From a virus, in IMG/VR virus record IMGVR_UViG_3300017735_000023, positions 1 to 42,150 of that record: a DNA stretch of 42,150 nt; one strand, 5' to 3'. Positions 21,582 through 26,875 of the stretch are shown here, piece after piece. The notes under the pieces are model-generated. The model was not told the origin of the DNA, did no database searches, and saw only the letters and a list, made by a program, of their open reading frames with translations. A program made the position numbers and the translations under genes. Position 1 is the first letter of the stretch, and every line of letters begins with the position of its first letter.

Positions 21582-21628
21582 CTTTATCTACCGACCTGAG
21601 TATGTCGTTAAACTACTCACTTTACATT

Positions 21629-22465
21629 ATGAATATACAATCTTTAGTTCACACTGCTCTCAATGCGGAGCGTTACTCACCTGAGTACAAACAAGCTTGG
21701 CGTTCACTGTTCAAGCAAGCCGAGTCTCTATGCAAACTCGTTACCAATCGTGACCTTGATCCTGCTACCTTAGTAGATGACTGGGTCGCACAGTATGATG
21801 ACACTATCAATCACTGTAATCCTGACGATGATGCAGTCGCAGGTGATATGTCCTGTATGCAGTCAATGCGTAACCAACAGCGTGAGTTCCTTAATGATAT
21901 CCGTGCTCAGTATATCACAAACTTACGCAAGTCCAACGACCGTAGTTACACAGTCAAAGTTCGTCGTGAGTATCTCAACATAGCCAAGCGTCTACGCAAG
22001 TTATGGAATGAAGAGAATGATACTAACATACAGTCAGTGCCCTTCGAAGTATACGAAGAGATGCCTAACTCTGTTGTATTCGAGACAGTAGATAACATCT
22101 CTGATACCGAACGGTATGTCAATCGTCAAGAGTCTCGCCTTACATTCTATCAAGAACCTGAGTGTGACCCTAATGACAGTCACTATGTTGGTAACACCAC
22201 TCGTCGTAACCGTCGCAAACCTCGTGGCAATATAGGTTTACTCAATGGTCTGTACGAAATGACTGACCCTGAACCTACCTATCAGACGCCTGAGATGCGT
22301 CGTTGTATGTTCCGTCAGTTGCGTAGCTCAGACAATCCACTAGATATCGAGATGCTATACTCTCTCACTCAACCTACTCGTCGCAATGAGACTGACGAGC
22401 AATGGGCTATCAAGGTAACCAAAAGGAGAAAGCTTCGTGATACACATATTTCTAGACTTAATTAA
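21629..22465 (+). CDS. Hypothetical early protein with basic patches
   Basis: A 278-residue protein from ATG 21629; an in-frame ATG at 21602 would add nine residues and cannot be excluded. The N-terminal 130 residues look helical (YSPEYKQAWRSLFKQAESL), followed by a strongly basic stretch near residue 195 (TTRRNRRKPRGN) and a charged C-terminus (KVTKRRKLRDTH). Basic patches suggest nucleic-acid contact. A Shine-Dalgarno for the next small gene lies inside its 3' end. No family is recognised. Confidence 0.7.
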   Translation: MNIQSLVHTALNAERYSPEYKQAWRSLFKQAESLCKLVTNRDLDPATLVDDWVAQYDDTINHCNPDDDAVAGDMSCMQSMRNQQREFLNDIRAQYITNLRKSNDRSYTVKVRREYLNIAKRLRKLWNEENDTNIQSVPFEVYEEMPNSVVFETVDNISDTERYVNRQESRLTFYQEPECDPNDSHYVGNTTRRNRRKPRGNIGLLNGLYEMTDPEPTYQTPEMRRCMFRQLRSSDNPLDIEMLYSLTQPTRRNETDEQWAIKVTKRRKLRDTHISRLN

Positions 22466-22628: not shown

Positions 22629-23033
22629 ATGGAAATACTATTCCTTAGTTTTATCTGTGCCCTATCGTATCTTATTATACTGTGCAAGATATTTACGCTC
22701 AAGTTTATATGTCGCACGCAAGTTCTTTGGGATGTACTGTTCACCTTTGGGTTACCTATGTTATTTGTTGGTACTTTCAGTGGTATGGCTACTGCTTTTA
22801 TTTCAGGCGTACTGTTTTCTGGAATTACTTTCTTTTTATCTATGCTAATGCAACCTAATATCTTAGCTCGCTTCTCATTTCCATATGGTAGCACGCAAGA
22901 TAAAGATAACAAAACAACTAGCGACAATACTAATCCCACTCGCTCTCGACCTTGCCCTGTGTGTAATCAATCGGTGCAGGTACAGAGTAACAAAGAAGAG
23001 AAACAAAGACAGGCGATAGATTGTCGTACATAA
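22629..23033 (+). CDS. Membrane protein with cytoplasmic CPVC tail
   Basis: A 134-residue protein with about three hydrophobic helices (residues 1-22, 33-55, 58-78), then a polar tail carrying a PCPVCNQSV motif (CxxC; possibly a half zinc site needing a partner) and a charged end. It is followed one base later by a rho-independent terminator, closing the first early unit. The family is unknown. A role in the host membrane is inferred from topology. Confidence 0.65.
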   Translation: MEILFLSFICALSYLIILCKIFTLKFICRTQVLWDVLFTFGLPMLFVGTFSGMATAFISGVLFSGITFFLSMLMQPNILARFSFPYGSTQDKDNKTTSDNTNPTRSRPCPVCNQSVQVQSNKEEKQRQAIDCRT

Positions 23034-23077: not shown

Positions 23078-23148
23078 ATGAAACCATATACAACTTGAAC
23101 AATGAAAGAGAGAGTAATGAATATGACAAAGATGTCAACAAAAACTTT

Positions 23149-23379
23149 ATGGATAACACAACAATAACAATCAGATATGGTATGTCTAATTCAGTTAGTC
23201 GTACCTTCGATGAGAACTACACAGTTAGTTCTCTTCTCCGTGACACGTCCATCTTAGGTGCATTGTCTGCTCCTGAGGGGTGTGTTGCTGTCTCCAATGG
23301 TCAAACACTTAGCAACGAAAACTATGTCGCTGACTACACATCGATTACACTTGAGCGTCAAGCATCAAGCAAAGCTTAA
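23149..23379 (+). CDS. Ubiquitin-like (beta-grasp) modifier protein
   Basis: A 76-residue protein from ATG 23149, the length of ubiquitin. Predicted order fits the beta-grasp fold: strand (TTITIRYG, residues 4-11), strand (VSRTFDENY), helix (TVSSLLRDTSILGAL), then CVAVSNGQTLSN and ADYTSITLERQ, resembling the 'vNG...DGD.itl' end of MoaD/ThiS/ubiquitin-like proteins. A TTG at 23095 would add 18 charged residues. The chain ends RQASSKA, with no terminal Gly-Gly. It stands immediately upstream of E2-like, E1-like and JAB genes, which makes a protein-modifier role likely. It is isolated by terminators on both sides, suggesting separate, higher expression. The fold call is from pattern only. Confidence 0.75.
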   Translation: MDNTTITIRYGMSNSVSRTFDENYTVSSLLRDTSILGALSAPEGCVAVSNGQTLSNENYVADYTSITLERQASSKA

Positions 23380-23462: not shown

Positions 23463-24344
23463 ATGTCAACAACACTACCGCTTCGTCAGGAAATCATTCT
23501 CGGACCTGACGGCAAATTCATCAAGCGAGAAACGAGAGAATCTGTCATTGCTGACGCAGACACAGCTATCACTGCCTGTATGCGTGACGATACTCTTCGT
23601 ATGTCTAACATACCTGTATCAATACCTGTACTAAACAAGGAGTATCAATGTTACTATGCACACAACTCTGGTGTTAATCCAGAAAACTGTTATGCATTTG
23701 TTAATCTAGCTGACGGCTTTCCGTTACCTGGTGCAAAATTCAGACAAACAGATAATCAAGATCTATATGAACTGTATATACTAAGTGACTCAGAAAGACG
23801 AGGCGAACGATCTGAACCTGAGGATGTTGTTCAACCATCTGATATGGTTATGTACAACAACACTGACTACTCTATGTGGATGATGATTAGATTCAACTGT
23901 CGCTATCTCGGTAGTAAGACTGCCAAGCTACAAGCTAGTAGAGACTCAATGACTGCTTACCTATTTGGTATACACAAAGCGTCAAGAAACCTTGTCACCT
24001 TCAATCTACCTAACATCTATGACGACGGCAGACTATGCGGTGGTGGAGACTTCAGAGATCCACGCCTAATAGAAAGCACTATGCCTATTACTTACTTGCA
24101 AACAGCAGTAACTAATCTAATGGATACAATGTTCAAATCACCCTGTAATCGTGACTTGTATTATTCAGAACTAGTCAACGCTCATGCTTGGTGGTACAAA
24201 AGAGACAATGAGTTTGCTACTGTACCAACAAATGCAATGACAGACTTCGACGAAGACTACAAACCACACGGTCGTTTCTTCCAAGATATTACTAACTCTA
24301 ACCTTATAGATTTCGCATCATGTCTACAGTCTACAACAAACTAA
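23463..24344 (+). CDS. E2-like protein (PRTRC protein B-like)
   Basis: A 293-residue protein. The segment at 180-196 (FNLPNIYDDGRLCGGGD) resembles the conserved 'N.Y.dGrvClG' motif of PRTRC system protein B, a family predicted to adopt an E2 ubiquitin-conjugating-like fold. C192 is the candidate thioester-accepting cysteine. Upstream, FPLPGAKF (86-93) and YELYILSDSER (102-112) also fit that family's beta-sheet core. It is the first gene of a four-gene overlapping set with an unknown protein, E1-like and JAB genes, and would receive the modifier from the E1. The first 60 residues are not recognised. E2 assignment is family-pattern inference; catalysis is untested. Confidence 0.7.
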   Translation: MSTTLPLRQEIILGPDGKFIKRETRESVIADADTAITACMRDDTLRMSNIPVSIPVLNKEYQCYYAHNSGVNPENCYAFVNLADGFPLPGAKFRQTDNQDLYELYILSDSERRGERSEPEDVVQPSDMVMYNNTDYSMWMMIRFNCRYLGSKTAKLQASRDSMTAYLFGIHKASRNLVTFNLPNIYDDGRLCGGGDFRDPRLIESTMPITYLQTAVTNLMDTMFKSPCNRDLYYSELVNAHAWWYKRDNEFATVPTNAMTDFDEDYKPHGRFFQDITNSNLIDFASCLQSTTN

Positions 24345-24685
24345 TCAACAATCAGTGTAGTGCTACACCACTATACTATGCATTCAACTATGCTAACGAC
24401 AACCCAGACAACATGGTTACATCACACCATATGCAAAACATAGCTCAAGAACTAGAACAATCAAACAAAACCTATGCCGATACACACGAGATTGATCACG
24501 GTCTAGCTGACGATGAGATGCGTATCTTACACAAGATACTAGCTCGTGCTTATCCATCTGACACTGGTGTCGGTCGTAAGAGAGGTGCGATATTGAGGTA
24601 TATAAAACACTTCAAAGAAACACAACACAAACCAGCTCAAGTAACTGGTCAACAACTTCACAGATATCTAAAACGCAATGGCTAA
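24320..24685 (+). CDS. Unknown component between E2-like and E1-like genes
   Basis: A 121-residue helical protein (MSTVYNKLINNQCSATPLYY...), with His-rich segments (SHHMQN; HEIDHGLADDEMRILHKILARAY) and a basic end (QQLHRYLKRNG). It overlaps the E2-like gene by 25 bases and the E1-like gene by 8, so it is translated with them. I do not recognise a family. Position suggests an accessory, adaptor or substrate-selecting subunit of the conjugation system, but nothing in the sequence proves this. Confidence 0.8.
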   Translation: MSTVYNKLINNQCSATPLYYAFNYANDNPDNMVTSHHMQNIAQELEQSNKTYADTHEIDHGLADDEMRILHKILARAYPSDTGVGRKRGAILRYIKHFKETQHKPAQVTGQQLHRYLKRNG

Positions 24686-25403
24686 ACCAAAACTAAACGC
24701 ACTTATTGTAGGCTGTGGTGGTGTAACATCATACATGTTACCTGCCCTCAAGAACAGCTTTGACCTAGAGGTCACACTAGTTGACGGAGATACACTAGAG
24801 AAAAGAAACCTAGACCGTCAGCTATTCCGCAACAACCATGTCGGACTTAACAAAGCAGTCGCACTTGCCAAAGCATACACGCTCCGCAAGAACGAATGCA
24901 ATATAGTACAACAATACTTTGACAGCGAGATGCTAGACACTGAGTACAAGTACTGGTTCTCTCGTGCAGATATATTTATCTGTGCTGTTGACAACCACCC
25001 AGCCAGACGAGACCTGCTTCATGCATCAAAAGAAATGAACAAACCTTGTCTTATCATGGCTAATGAGTACTCGACTAGTCAAGCTATGATGTATGTGCCA
25101 CACTTGGAAGCACAGTATCCAATGATTAATCCTATGCTTCGTTACCCTGAGATACAAACTTCAAACACAGGTAGCCCTATCAGTTGCCAAGGAGATGCAC
25201 TCGAGAGTACGCCTCAACTAGCTATTGCGAACCAGGTTAGTGCGTCCCTTGGTAATCTCCTGCTTTGGAACTGGGCACCATACCTGTTTGACGAACAAGA
25301 GAGAGGCGATTGGTATCCTGTTGAGTACCAAACTACCTTCAGTAAACTAGAAACTATAACCCTTGCTGACCTAGCAAACATAACAGTACCATCCTATGCC
25401 TAA
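24678..25403 (+). CDS. E1-like adenylating enzyme (ThiF/MoeB/PRTRC-ThiF type)
   Basis: A 241-residue ThiF-fold protein. A Gly-rich nucleotide loop lies at residues 10-18 (IVGCGGVTS); VDGD at 35-38 gives the ribose-binding acidic residue; NLDRQLF (44-50) holds the conserved Arg-Gln, LNK (57-59) the Lys, and CAVDN (102-106) the ATP/Mg aspartate. C170 in SPISCQG is the best candidate for the thioester cysteine. Such enzymes adenylate the C-terminus of a ubiquitin-like protein and pass it on as a thioester. Length matches single-domain ThiF-like proteins of PRTRC cassettes. The gene overlaps its neighbours by 8 bases on each side. Confidence 0.9.
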   Translation: MAKPKLNALIVGCGGVTSYMLPALKNSFDLEVTLVDGDTLEKRNLDRQLFRNNHVGLNKAVALAKAYTLRKNECNIVQQYFDSEMLDTEYKYWFSRADIFICAVDNHPARRDLLHASKEMNKPCLIMANEYSTSQAMMYVPHLEAQYPMINPMLRYPEIQTSNTGSPISCQGDALESTPQLAIANQVSASLGNLLLWNWAPYLFDEQERGDWYPVEYQTTFSKLETITLADLANITVPSYA

Positions 25404-26526
25404 GAAATACTATGTTATATCCAAAAGTAAACTTCACGAGGAGGTTAAGAACAAAATGTTCACGACCTATAAACCAATTGAATTACCAGAATATGAAGAG
25501 CTTACGCCTGAATGGCACGGTAAGAAGATCCCTCTCACTATGTGGCGAGAGATCCTTGCCTTCATGAAGCTGAGCTATGATGAACTCAAGTCAGAGACTA
25601 TGTTGTTCTTGTACTATGATGATACAAAGAAACAACCTTGGTCTTATTGGATACCACCTCAGATCACAGCAGGTATGACTGTCAAGTCTAACCCTGAACA
25701 CTCAGAGTTCCAAGCACAGCGTGCTCAGTATCCAGACATTATGTTCGGTACTGTACACCACCACTGTAGTACATCTGCATTCCAATCTGGTACTGATGAA
25801 GCCGACGAGACTAACCGAGAAGGCTTTCACTTTACTGTTGGTAACCTCGACAAACCTGATGACATTGACATCCACTTTCGTTGGTGTCTAGACAATCAGT
25901 GTCACGAGCTAGACAATCTATCTATTGCTATCGGTGGTGCACAGTCACCATTCAAGAAAGACATAGAGCTTACTGATGATATGCTTGAACTACAAAGTGA
26001 GTATATGAATCAGCAGTTGGCTAAGCTACCTGACCTCAGCAAGTATGACTTCACTGAACAGATGAAGAACATAGACAAGCCAGCATACACACTGCCTGTT
26101 TACTCAAAAAAAAATACGGAGCCACTATCAGTCGTCCCTTCTATGGTAGAAGAACAACTTACAGTTGGTGACATCGTCGATGAAATTCTTTTCGCTATTA
26201 AATTTGATACTGACATTGAGTCTTGTATTGAAACCTATTACCAAACACATGAACCAGAACAAGCCAGCCAAAAAATCACAGACCTGTACTCAGGATTTGT
26301 CTGGGACACAGAATATGCAAGAGTTCTACACGGAATGCTCACAAATTCTGAGTACCACTTGTCAAGATCTTATGAAAGTTTTCTCAAAGCATTCAACAAA
26401 CATCTTGACATGTTTAAAGAACAAGGTTACATCTTATCGGACAATGACATCATCCAAGAACTGGAGTCATACCCAGATGAAGACCGAGAAACAATTCAAC
26501 CAATGGATAACCCACCAATTCTATGA
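25396..26526 (+). CDS. JAB/JAMM metallopeptidase with C-terminal extension
   Basis: A 376-residue protein. Residues 117-134 carry the complete JAMM zinc signature: HxH at H121 and H123, S131 and D134, with the spacing HxH-x7-S-x2-D; E67 is a plausible upstream catalytic Glu. JAB proteases in ubiquitin-like systems trim the modifier's C-terminus or remove it from targets. Residues 1-180 form the JAB domain; from about 235 on follows an acidic helical extension I do not recognise. A run of nine A residues (26106-26114) lies exactly at the linker. The gene overlaps the E1-like gene by 8 bases and the nuclease gene by 50. Confidence 0.88.
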   Translation: MPKKYYVISKSKLHEEVKNKMFTTYKPIELPEYEELTPEWHGKKIPLTMWREILAFMKLSYDELKSETMLFLYYDDTKKQPWSYWIPPQITAGMTVKSNPEHSEFQAQRAQYPDIMFGTVHHHCSTSAFQSGTDEADETNREGFHFTVGNLDKPDDIDIHFRWCLDNQCHELDNLSIAIGGAQSPFKKDIELTDDMLELQSEYMNQQLAKLPDLSKYDFTEQMKNIDKPAYTLPVYSKKNTEPLSVVPSMVEEQLTVGDIVDEILFAIKFDTDIESCIETYYQTHEPEQASQKITDLYSGFVWDTEYARVLHGMLTNSEYHLSRSYESFLKAFNKHLDMFKEQGYILSDNDIIQELESYPDEDRETIQPMDNPPIL

Positions 26527-26875
26527 AGAATATAATAAACACATTACGGTGCAACGCATCGAAACTACTACAGGCAACGGAGTCCCTGATCTCCTCATTC
26601 TCACGCAAGATAAGACTTACCTTATTGAAAGTAAGTTCGAAACTACTAGGCTCAGACCAGAACAACAAGCGTGGCAAATAAAAGCCAACAGCATACCAAC
26701 AGACACAGTAGTAGTTACACTCTGTGCCTACCCCAAGACCAAGCGTCTTGTTGTACAACAGTACAATAACATTAGTATTACTGACGACGGCATACATCCT
26801 GTTGTTGACACAGAGTTCACATTAGATAACGAAGGGTTCAAAGAATTTATAAACTATTTCCATAACGCAGCCTAG
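26477..26875 (+). CDS. VRR-NUC-type nuclease
   Basis: A 132-residue PD-(D/E)xK nuclease. Residues 29-63 show the VRR-NUC pattern: E29, GVPDLL with D38, LIESKFE with E51-x-K53, then RLRPEQQAW. ATG 26477 is chosen because the upstream open frame lies inside the JAB gene and has unnatural composition. Stand-alone VRR-NUC enzymes are common next to phage DNA polymerase and helicase genes and are thought to act as structure-specific nucleases in replication or recombination (a Holliday-junction resolvase role has been proposed). The 50-base overlap with JAB suggests coupled translation. Confidence 0.85.
   Translation: MKTEKQFNQWITHQFYEEYNKHITVQRIETTTGNGVPDLLILTQDKTYLIESKFETTRLRPEQQAWQIKANSIPTDTVVVTLCAYPKTKRLVVQQYNNISITDDGIHPVVDTEFTLDNEGFKEFINYFHNAA

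Follow-up and report, generated by a model that had tools for sequence, protein, structure and literature searches.

How a ubiquitin-like protein that lacks a C-terminal glycine might be put to use is the question raised by a small gene in a viral DNA of 42,150 nucleotides (IMG/VR record IMGVR_UViG_3300017735_000023, positions 1 to 42,150; the whole of this stretch is called the window below). According to the textbook rule, ubiquitin-like modifiers are activated at a terminal glycine. The ubiquitin-like protein (Ubl) encoded in the window ends in alanine instead, and the initial annotation, made from the sequence alone, offered three ways out: trimming by the neighbouring JAB protein exposes another residue, the E1 accepts an end other than glycine, or the protein is not conjugated through its C-terminus. 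Matches to PHROGs families in the window include a head-tail adaptor, a major head protein, terminase, a tail protein, DNA polymerase, primase and helicases, and we infer a short-tailed, T7-like layout.

A predicted ubiquitin fold with an alanine end

The 3' end of the Ubl gene (23340-23379) translates as ...S-I-T-L-E-R-Q-A-S-S-K-A-stop. The original reading is thereby confirmed: the protein ends in LERQASSKA and glycine is absent from its last ten residues (TLERQASSKA). The open reading frame as listed begins with a TTG codon at 23095, and an alternative ATG at 23149 yields a protein of 76 amino acids (Table 1). Since Met1 is invariant in the alignments and the sequence upstream of it differs between relatives, the ATG, which encodes the conserved methionine, is the likelier start; initiation at the TTG codon is thought unlikely.

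Table 1. Features of the Ubl cassette and adjoining gene in the window
Feature	Position	Strand	Supporting observations
Ubl (ubiquitin-like, beta-grasp), 76 aa, Ala end	23149..23379	+	AlphaFold2 model; PDB matches to ubiquitin, NEDD8, ISG15; tail conservation
Conserved C-terminal tail Q-A-S-S-K-A (last six codons)	23359..23376	+	
E2-like protein, 293 aa	23463..24344	+	N184, G189, C192, G194 (PNxxxxGxxCxG stretch) invariant in 25/25 aligned phage members
Small conserved protein	24320..24685	+	Present in 32/42 loci, those with the whole set
ThiF-type E1, 241 aa	24678..25403	+	PF00899 4.3e-20; TIGR03736 PRTRC_ThiF 4.6e-12, below cut-off
JAB/JAMM metalloprotease	25396..26526	+	Complete E...HxH(x7)SxxD motif: E67, H121, H123, S131, D134
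VRR_NUC nuclease gene, overlapping the end of the JAB gene	26165..26875	+	PF08774 1.1e-6

An AlphaFold2 model of the Ubl, computed with 34 aligned sequences, has a beta-grasp fold with a mean pLDDT of 90.7, the tail being predicted with less confidence (61 over residues 71-76). As modelled, the Ubl is a ubiquitin fold with a free, flexible tail and falls among the beta-grasp proteins. Foldseek and VIA-align both place ubiquitin, designed ubiquitins, NEDD8, ISG15 and other Ubls nearest to it among solved structures. The best Foldseek E value was 9.5e-5, and each of the 24 matches that reached 0.001 is ubiquitin, an engineered variant of it or some other Ubl, alone or in complex; Z scores in VIA-align ranged from 9.6 to 8.6 among the best 50 matches listed.

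The terminal alanine is conserved in near relatives

Scanning viral contigs with the Ubl protein gave 12 loci, and scanning with its alignment gave 42, two of which (L059 and L063) are cut off at the 3' end and were dropped. QASSKA terminates the Ubl in all 40 intact loci. A scan based on the E1 contributed 60 new loci, of which 40 contain a near-clade Ubl, 6 a distant Ubl and 14 none; in these 14 the E1 match begins no more than 1,401 bases from the start of the locus. Each of the 41 distinct near-clade proteins, the one in the window included, ends in alanine (QASSKA in 40, QASCKA in 1), and the C-terminal glycine (Gly-Gly) of classic conjugated Ubls is thus absent from the near clade. The 42nd row of the near-clade tail table, L180 (RSSSKA), is counted with the distant relatives instead. 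The initial annotation had proposed an alignment of related phage Ubls as a way of finding the conserved C-terminal residue; in the near clade that residue is alanine.

The final alanine codon is GCT in 20, GCA in 10, GCG in 5 and GCC in 2 of the 37 distinct nucleotide sequences among the 41, and the stop codon that follows it is TAA in 30 and TAG in 7. With all four alanine codons in use and either stop codon following, the constraint must act on the protein, and it does so up to the last residue. The last six positions are nearly fixed, and the seventh from the end is variable (R, K, Q or P). A frameshift or sequencing error that hides a glycine, which the initial annotation had mentioned as a possible artefact, can be rejected as the same end recurs on many separate contigs; judged from these sequences, such an origin of the alanine is very unlikely. 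The companion possibility, that homologs end in Gly-Gly and the window Ubl is an outlier, is contradicted by the tails of the phage Ubls: none of 57 (41 near, 16 distant) has Gly-Gly, and the window protein is typical of its clade.

Partner genes

The order Ubl-E2-small-E1-JAB (Table 1) was found in 32/32 loci that contain all four partner genes, out of 42 examined; the remaining 10 loci stop short of the full set. In the 32 whole-set loci the small protein sits between the E2-like and E1 genes, and its relatives have the stretch GRKRGAILRYI in common. The VRR_NUC gene is kept with the cassette in 28 of these 32 loci. Upstream of the Ubl gene, the window encodes proteins of 134 (22629-23033) and 287 (21602-22465) amino acids, relatives of which precede the Ubl in many related loci.

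The residues presumed to be catalytic are retained. An alignment of 10 phage and plasmid proteins shows that the E1 keeps GxGG, D36, N44, R47, Q48, K59, D105 and C170, and GxGG, D36, N44, R47, K59, D105 and the conserved Cys170 are retained in the near clade too. All five residues of the JAMM motif (E67, H121, H123, S131 and D134) are invariant in 9 aligned proteins. In E2 enzymes the active-site stretch is HPN...GxxC, which the PNxxxxGxxCxG stretch of the 293-residue protein appears to resemble. The assignment follows from this short motif, and the protein is termed E2-like with no claim of an E2 fold. It matched no NCBIfam or Pfam family. Its structural model (pLDDT 81.4) gave no Foldseek match at an E value of 0.001 or better; in a second structure search the best row was the UEV domain of TSG101 (Z 4.2, rmsd 4.9 over 109 residues).

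These neighbours bear on the idea that the Ubl is not a protein modifier but a sulfur carrier, on which the E1 makes an alanine thiocarboxylate for a biosynthetic step. In ThiS and MoaD the thiocarboxylate is formed on glycine. The best NCBIfam matches of the E1 are ThiF proteins, and the weak sequence matches of the Ubl point towards ThiS within the fold, with one of 14 diverse members matching Pfam ThiS (7.8e-4); individual members of the same set hit unrelated families as well, at 0.004 to 0.01. Arguing against a biosynthetic role, the E2-like gene with its invariant cysteine and the JAMM gene lie alongside in 32/32 complete loci, and no rhodanese, thiamin or molybdopterin gene occurs among the family matches of the scanned neighbours. 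We therefore regard a sulfur carrier as unlikely.

Alanine and glycine alternate in distant relatives

Deeper scans with the E1 reached loci whose E1 is 30-37% identical to that of the window (L180-L185), and further loci were used in which the E1 is 26-44% identical to that of L181. In a search of 18 loci, distant Ubls were read in 16 (L185 duplicates L184, and L190 is close to L188) and none was recognised in L193 (one row, E 4.2) or L256 (no row). The residue after the conserved lysine is alanine in 10 of the 16 (L180, L182, L183, L188, L190, L191, L192, L198, L200 and L252), glycine in 5 (L181, L184, L196, L251 and L255) and glutamine in 1. The last is the relative in L244 (L244:3644-3874), which ends K-Q-N. 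From 1 to 15 residues follow K-A or K-G in 9 of the 16 (L182, L183, L184, L191, L192, L196, L198, L200 and L251). Five of these nine (L182, L183, L191, L192 and L200) end literally in alanine or glycine, so in these the functional end may lie elsewhere than at K-A. Counted by literal last residue, the 16 distant Ubls comprise 8 with alanine, 3 with glycine and 5 with another residue. One gene (L182:4254-4697) specifies a head-to-tail pair of Ubl domains, both ending in QEKA, in the manner of a polyubiquitin precursor.

On a tree of 47 E1 proteins, for which no root was inferred, the smallest number of changes between alanine and glycine is 4 (L244 left out); it is also 4 on a tree of 37 proteins, and the well-supported branches alone force 3. 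L255 and L196 are on long branches, which makes their placement unsure. A change in the GxGGxx motif of the E1, viewed by eye as a possible switch for alanine, was dropped as an explanation because L182 and L183 are of the alanine type yet keep the glycine form of the motif.

The extended tails raise the possibility that the JAMM protein trims the Ubl (for example to Ser or Gln-Ala) and that the newly exposed residue is the one activated. In some relatives the residues after K-A or K-G might be removed in this way, and excerpts of a report on the Bil system describe BilC trimming BilA to expose a reactive glycine (PMC11354881). A discarded peptide would, however, be expected to drift, whereas conservation in the near clade reaches the last residue, and in the distant relatives drift starts only after K-A or K-G. 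Activation at a residue uncovered by trimming is thus distinctly improbable for the Ubl studied here, in which nothing follows the conserved alanine; in relatives with 1-15 residues after K-A or K-G, trimming is possible, though the literal alanine or glycine ends of five of those nine speak against a simple version of it.

The same tails can be set against a purely non-covalent use, in which the Ubl binds partners and selection keeps its tail as a docking peptide. Covalent use cannot be read from sequence, and six residues of the tail hardly vary in the near clade, perhaps a stronger constraint than the chemistry calls for. Yet the presumed catalytic residues are retained in the E1, the E2-like and the JAMM proteins, and alanine or glycine follows the lysine in 15/16 distant relatives while the residues downstream vary. 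We give docking without conjugation only a slim chance.

Relation to PRTRC operons

The phage cassette resembles PRTRC operons in clustering a stand-alone small Ubl, an E2-like protein with a conserved cysteine, a ThiF-type E1 and a JAB protein, and in the tail pattern xxK-[G/A]. We take PRTRC to be the later name of the set described as operon type 6d, an identity that fits the PRTRC names in plasmid annotations. In the survey by Iyer, Burroughs and Aravind (2006, PMC1779556), operon type 6d comprises an E1, a JAB protein, an E2-like protein that has a cysteine, a largely helical protein and a small Ubl whose C-terminal glycine is highly conserved. The cassette in the window differs in being phage-borne, in having alanine where that text states a highly conserved glycine, and in the placement of the E1 gene before the JAB gene, the order being reversed in plasmid PRTRC operons.

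PRTRC_C-type proteins were gathered from plasmid records, GTDB contigs, further genomes and one viral contig, giving 53 loci with 50 ORFs that match a purpose-built profile, 40 of them distinct. At the xxK-G place 39 of the 40 have glycine and 1 has alanine; the phage tail S-S-K-A thus shares the pattern of the G-T-K-G of PRTRC_C. The glycine stands at the true end in 28 of the 39 and is followed by 3-78 residues in 11. The single alanine belongs to PRTRC_C of Pelobacter propionicus plasmid pPRO1, which ends in TKA (L065:2819-3022), an instance of an alanine end in a bacterial PRTRC operon. An extension of 76-78 amino acids follows GTKG in mostly betaproteobacterial PRTRC_C proteins (L093, L089, L081, L095, L086, L083, L088 and L091) and might be removed by the JAB protein. 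Visual inspection of three cyanobacterial homologs showed K-G or N-G with a long extension after it.

Comparison of the individual proteins gave a graded picture. The E1 aligned with PRTRC ThiF in hhalign (probability 99.1%, E 4e-19) and matched TIGR03736 with 45.8 bits (4.6e-12), under the curated cut-off of 144.75. The JAB protein, with all JAMM residues present, matched TIGR03735 (PRTRC_A) at 8e-5 and 22.3 bits, under the cut-off of 101.8. Around its cysteine, the E2-like protein aligned with PRTRC_B (39%, E 3.1e-4) and with the cyanobacterial PRTRC-like homologs (86%, E 4.9e-6) in hhalign. Homology of the Ubl to PRTRC_C was sought by sequence and set aside as not significant: TIGR03738 matched nothing in the window at E 10, and two hhalign attempts gave a probability of 0.2% (E 0.34 and 0.36). 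The equivalence of the phage alanine and the PRTRC glycine is therefore drawn from the pattern of the tail, the fold and the gene context. An NCBIfam scan of nine neighbouring proteins gave no match to PRTRC ParB, D, E or F. As the E1 is related to PRTRC ThiF and the Ubl does not match PRTRC_C in sequence, the phage cassette with its fixed alanine end is a PRTRC-like variant and not a member of the set.

Relation to CBASS and Bil

Type II CBASS (cGAS/Cap2/Cap3) similarly combines E1 and E2 activities and a deconjugating enzyme with a donor that ends in glycine or alanine; in excerpts of the report describing it, an alignment of 1,583 cGAS C-termini has glycine or alanine at the end (PMC10097602). 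The same excerpts state that, in the E. coli system, replacing the glycine by alanine lowers but retains conjugation and raises the Cap2-bound thioester, and that serine, valine, arginine or tryptophan abolishes both conjugation and the Cap2 thioester; that an E. cloacae system with an alanine-ended cGAS is active, with cGAS conjugated; and that the P. aeruginosa system required glycine (PMC10097602). The CBASS donor is, however, the cGAS enzyme, devoid of a beta-grasp fold, and its E1 and E2 form one protein, whereas the phage has a small Ubl and separate genes. The E1 of the window matches PADLOC E1-E2 models (best 3.6e-10) over the ThiF part only, the E1 (241 amino acids) and the E2-like protein (293 amino acids) being separate ORFs, which places the cassette outside type II CBASS. 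The PADLOC cGAS models had no match among eight proteins scanned.

In the Bil system (BilABCD), too, a bacterial Ubl is accompanied by E1, E2 and JAMM genes. BilA, as portrayed in the excerpts of PMC11354881, carries two Ubl domains and has its reactive glycine exposed by trimming, whereas the window Ubl is a single protein of 76 amino acids with an alanine end. From the BilA-D models, only BilD was seen, on the E1 (6.6e-4, among the best 25 of 29 E1 matches).

A proposed model for activation at alanine

Taken together, these observations make it likely that the phage encodes a conjugation system of the ubiquitin kind in which the Ubl is the modifier, with the encoded alanine as its mature, activated C-terminus. 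Among the three options of the initial annotation, acceptance by the E1 of an end other than glycine has the strongest support: conservation of the end extends to its final residue, its pattern is that of PRTRC-type K-G tails, and glycine and alanine alternate on the E1 tree. Trimming, the first option, is unlikely for the window Ubl. An alanine end throughout the near clade with nothing after it, and alanine or glycine in 15/16 distant loci, are expected if this residue carries the activated carboxylate. By analogy with CBASS, where alanine has a precedent, and given the pattern of conserved ends, we propose activation at Ala76.

The ThiF-type E1 would adenylate the carboxylate of Ala76 and capture it as a thioester, probably on Cys170. 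The invariant Cys192 of the E2-like protein would then take the Ubl and hand it to a target, from which the JAMM protein would remove it again. The window Ubl would need no trimming; where a relative has residues beyond K-A or K-G, its precursor may first be cut by the JAMM protein. Glycine would not be required, because the E1 presumably tolerates the methyl group, as the interchange of alanine and glycine at this position across the family suggests. Of this scheme, the predicted fold, the conserved end, the gene order and the presence of the catalytic residues are directly supported, and we infer adenylation, thioester formation, transfer, removal and targets.

A broader reading, to which we give even odds, is that the phages harbor a diverse branch of such systems in which alanine is the usual activated residue and a K-A (or K-G) tail replaces Gly-Gly, some members being precursors with additional tail residues and one a tandem pair that recalls polyubiquitin. 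Alanine would in that case tune the chemistry, for instance by slowing transfer or by yielding conjugates that only the phage's own JAMM protein removes.

Occurrence in other phages and significance

Searches of annotated phage records produced no match to the Ubl and four weak matches to the E1. Two of the four, in Acinetobacter records, are annotated moeB and were discarded; the one examined sits among metabolic genes. Genes for E2-like, JAB and ThiF proteins occur in phages Arash and KLEB27-3 (L075 and L076); no Ubl was identified beside them in the few ORFs read. In Salmonella phage Arash they are gp248 (E2-like), gp247 (JAB) and gp246 (E1), the record labelling gp248 and gp246 as 'structural protein' and gp247 as hypothetical. 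Excerpts of a study of Arash particles report 116 proteins by mass spectrometry, many of them enzymes, and gp246 is named once in that study (PMC10585845). For the role of the cassette in the phage, these labels and the particle enzymes are a lead only. A literature search at the level of titles and the beginnings of abstracts, in a collection with few subscription journals and no preprints, found no report of phage-encoded ubiquitin-like conjugation.

Far from resembling an error, the alanine seems to be the end by which the tag works. If this is true, these phages provide small beta-grasp modifiers that naturally rely on alanine. The cassette also puts a full complement of E1, E2-like, JAMM and Ubl genes in phages. 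With modifiers that evolved without glycine at hand, the role of the glycine itself would become testable, be it room in the E1, speed of transfer or access for proteases.
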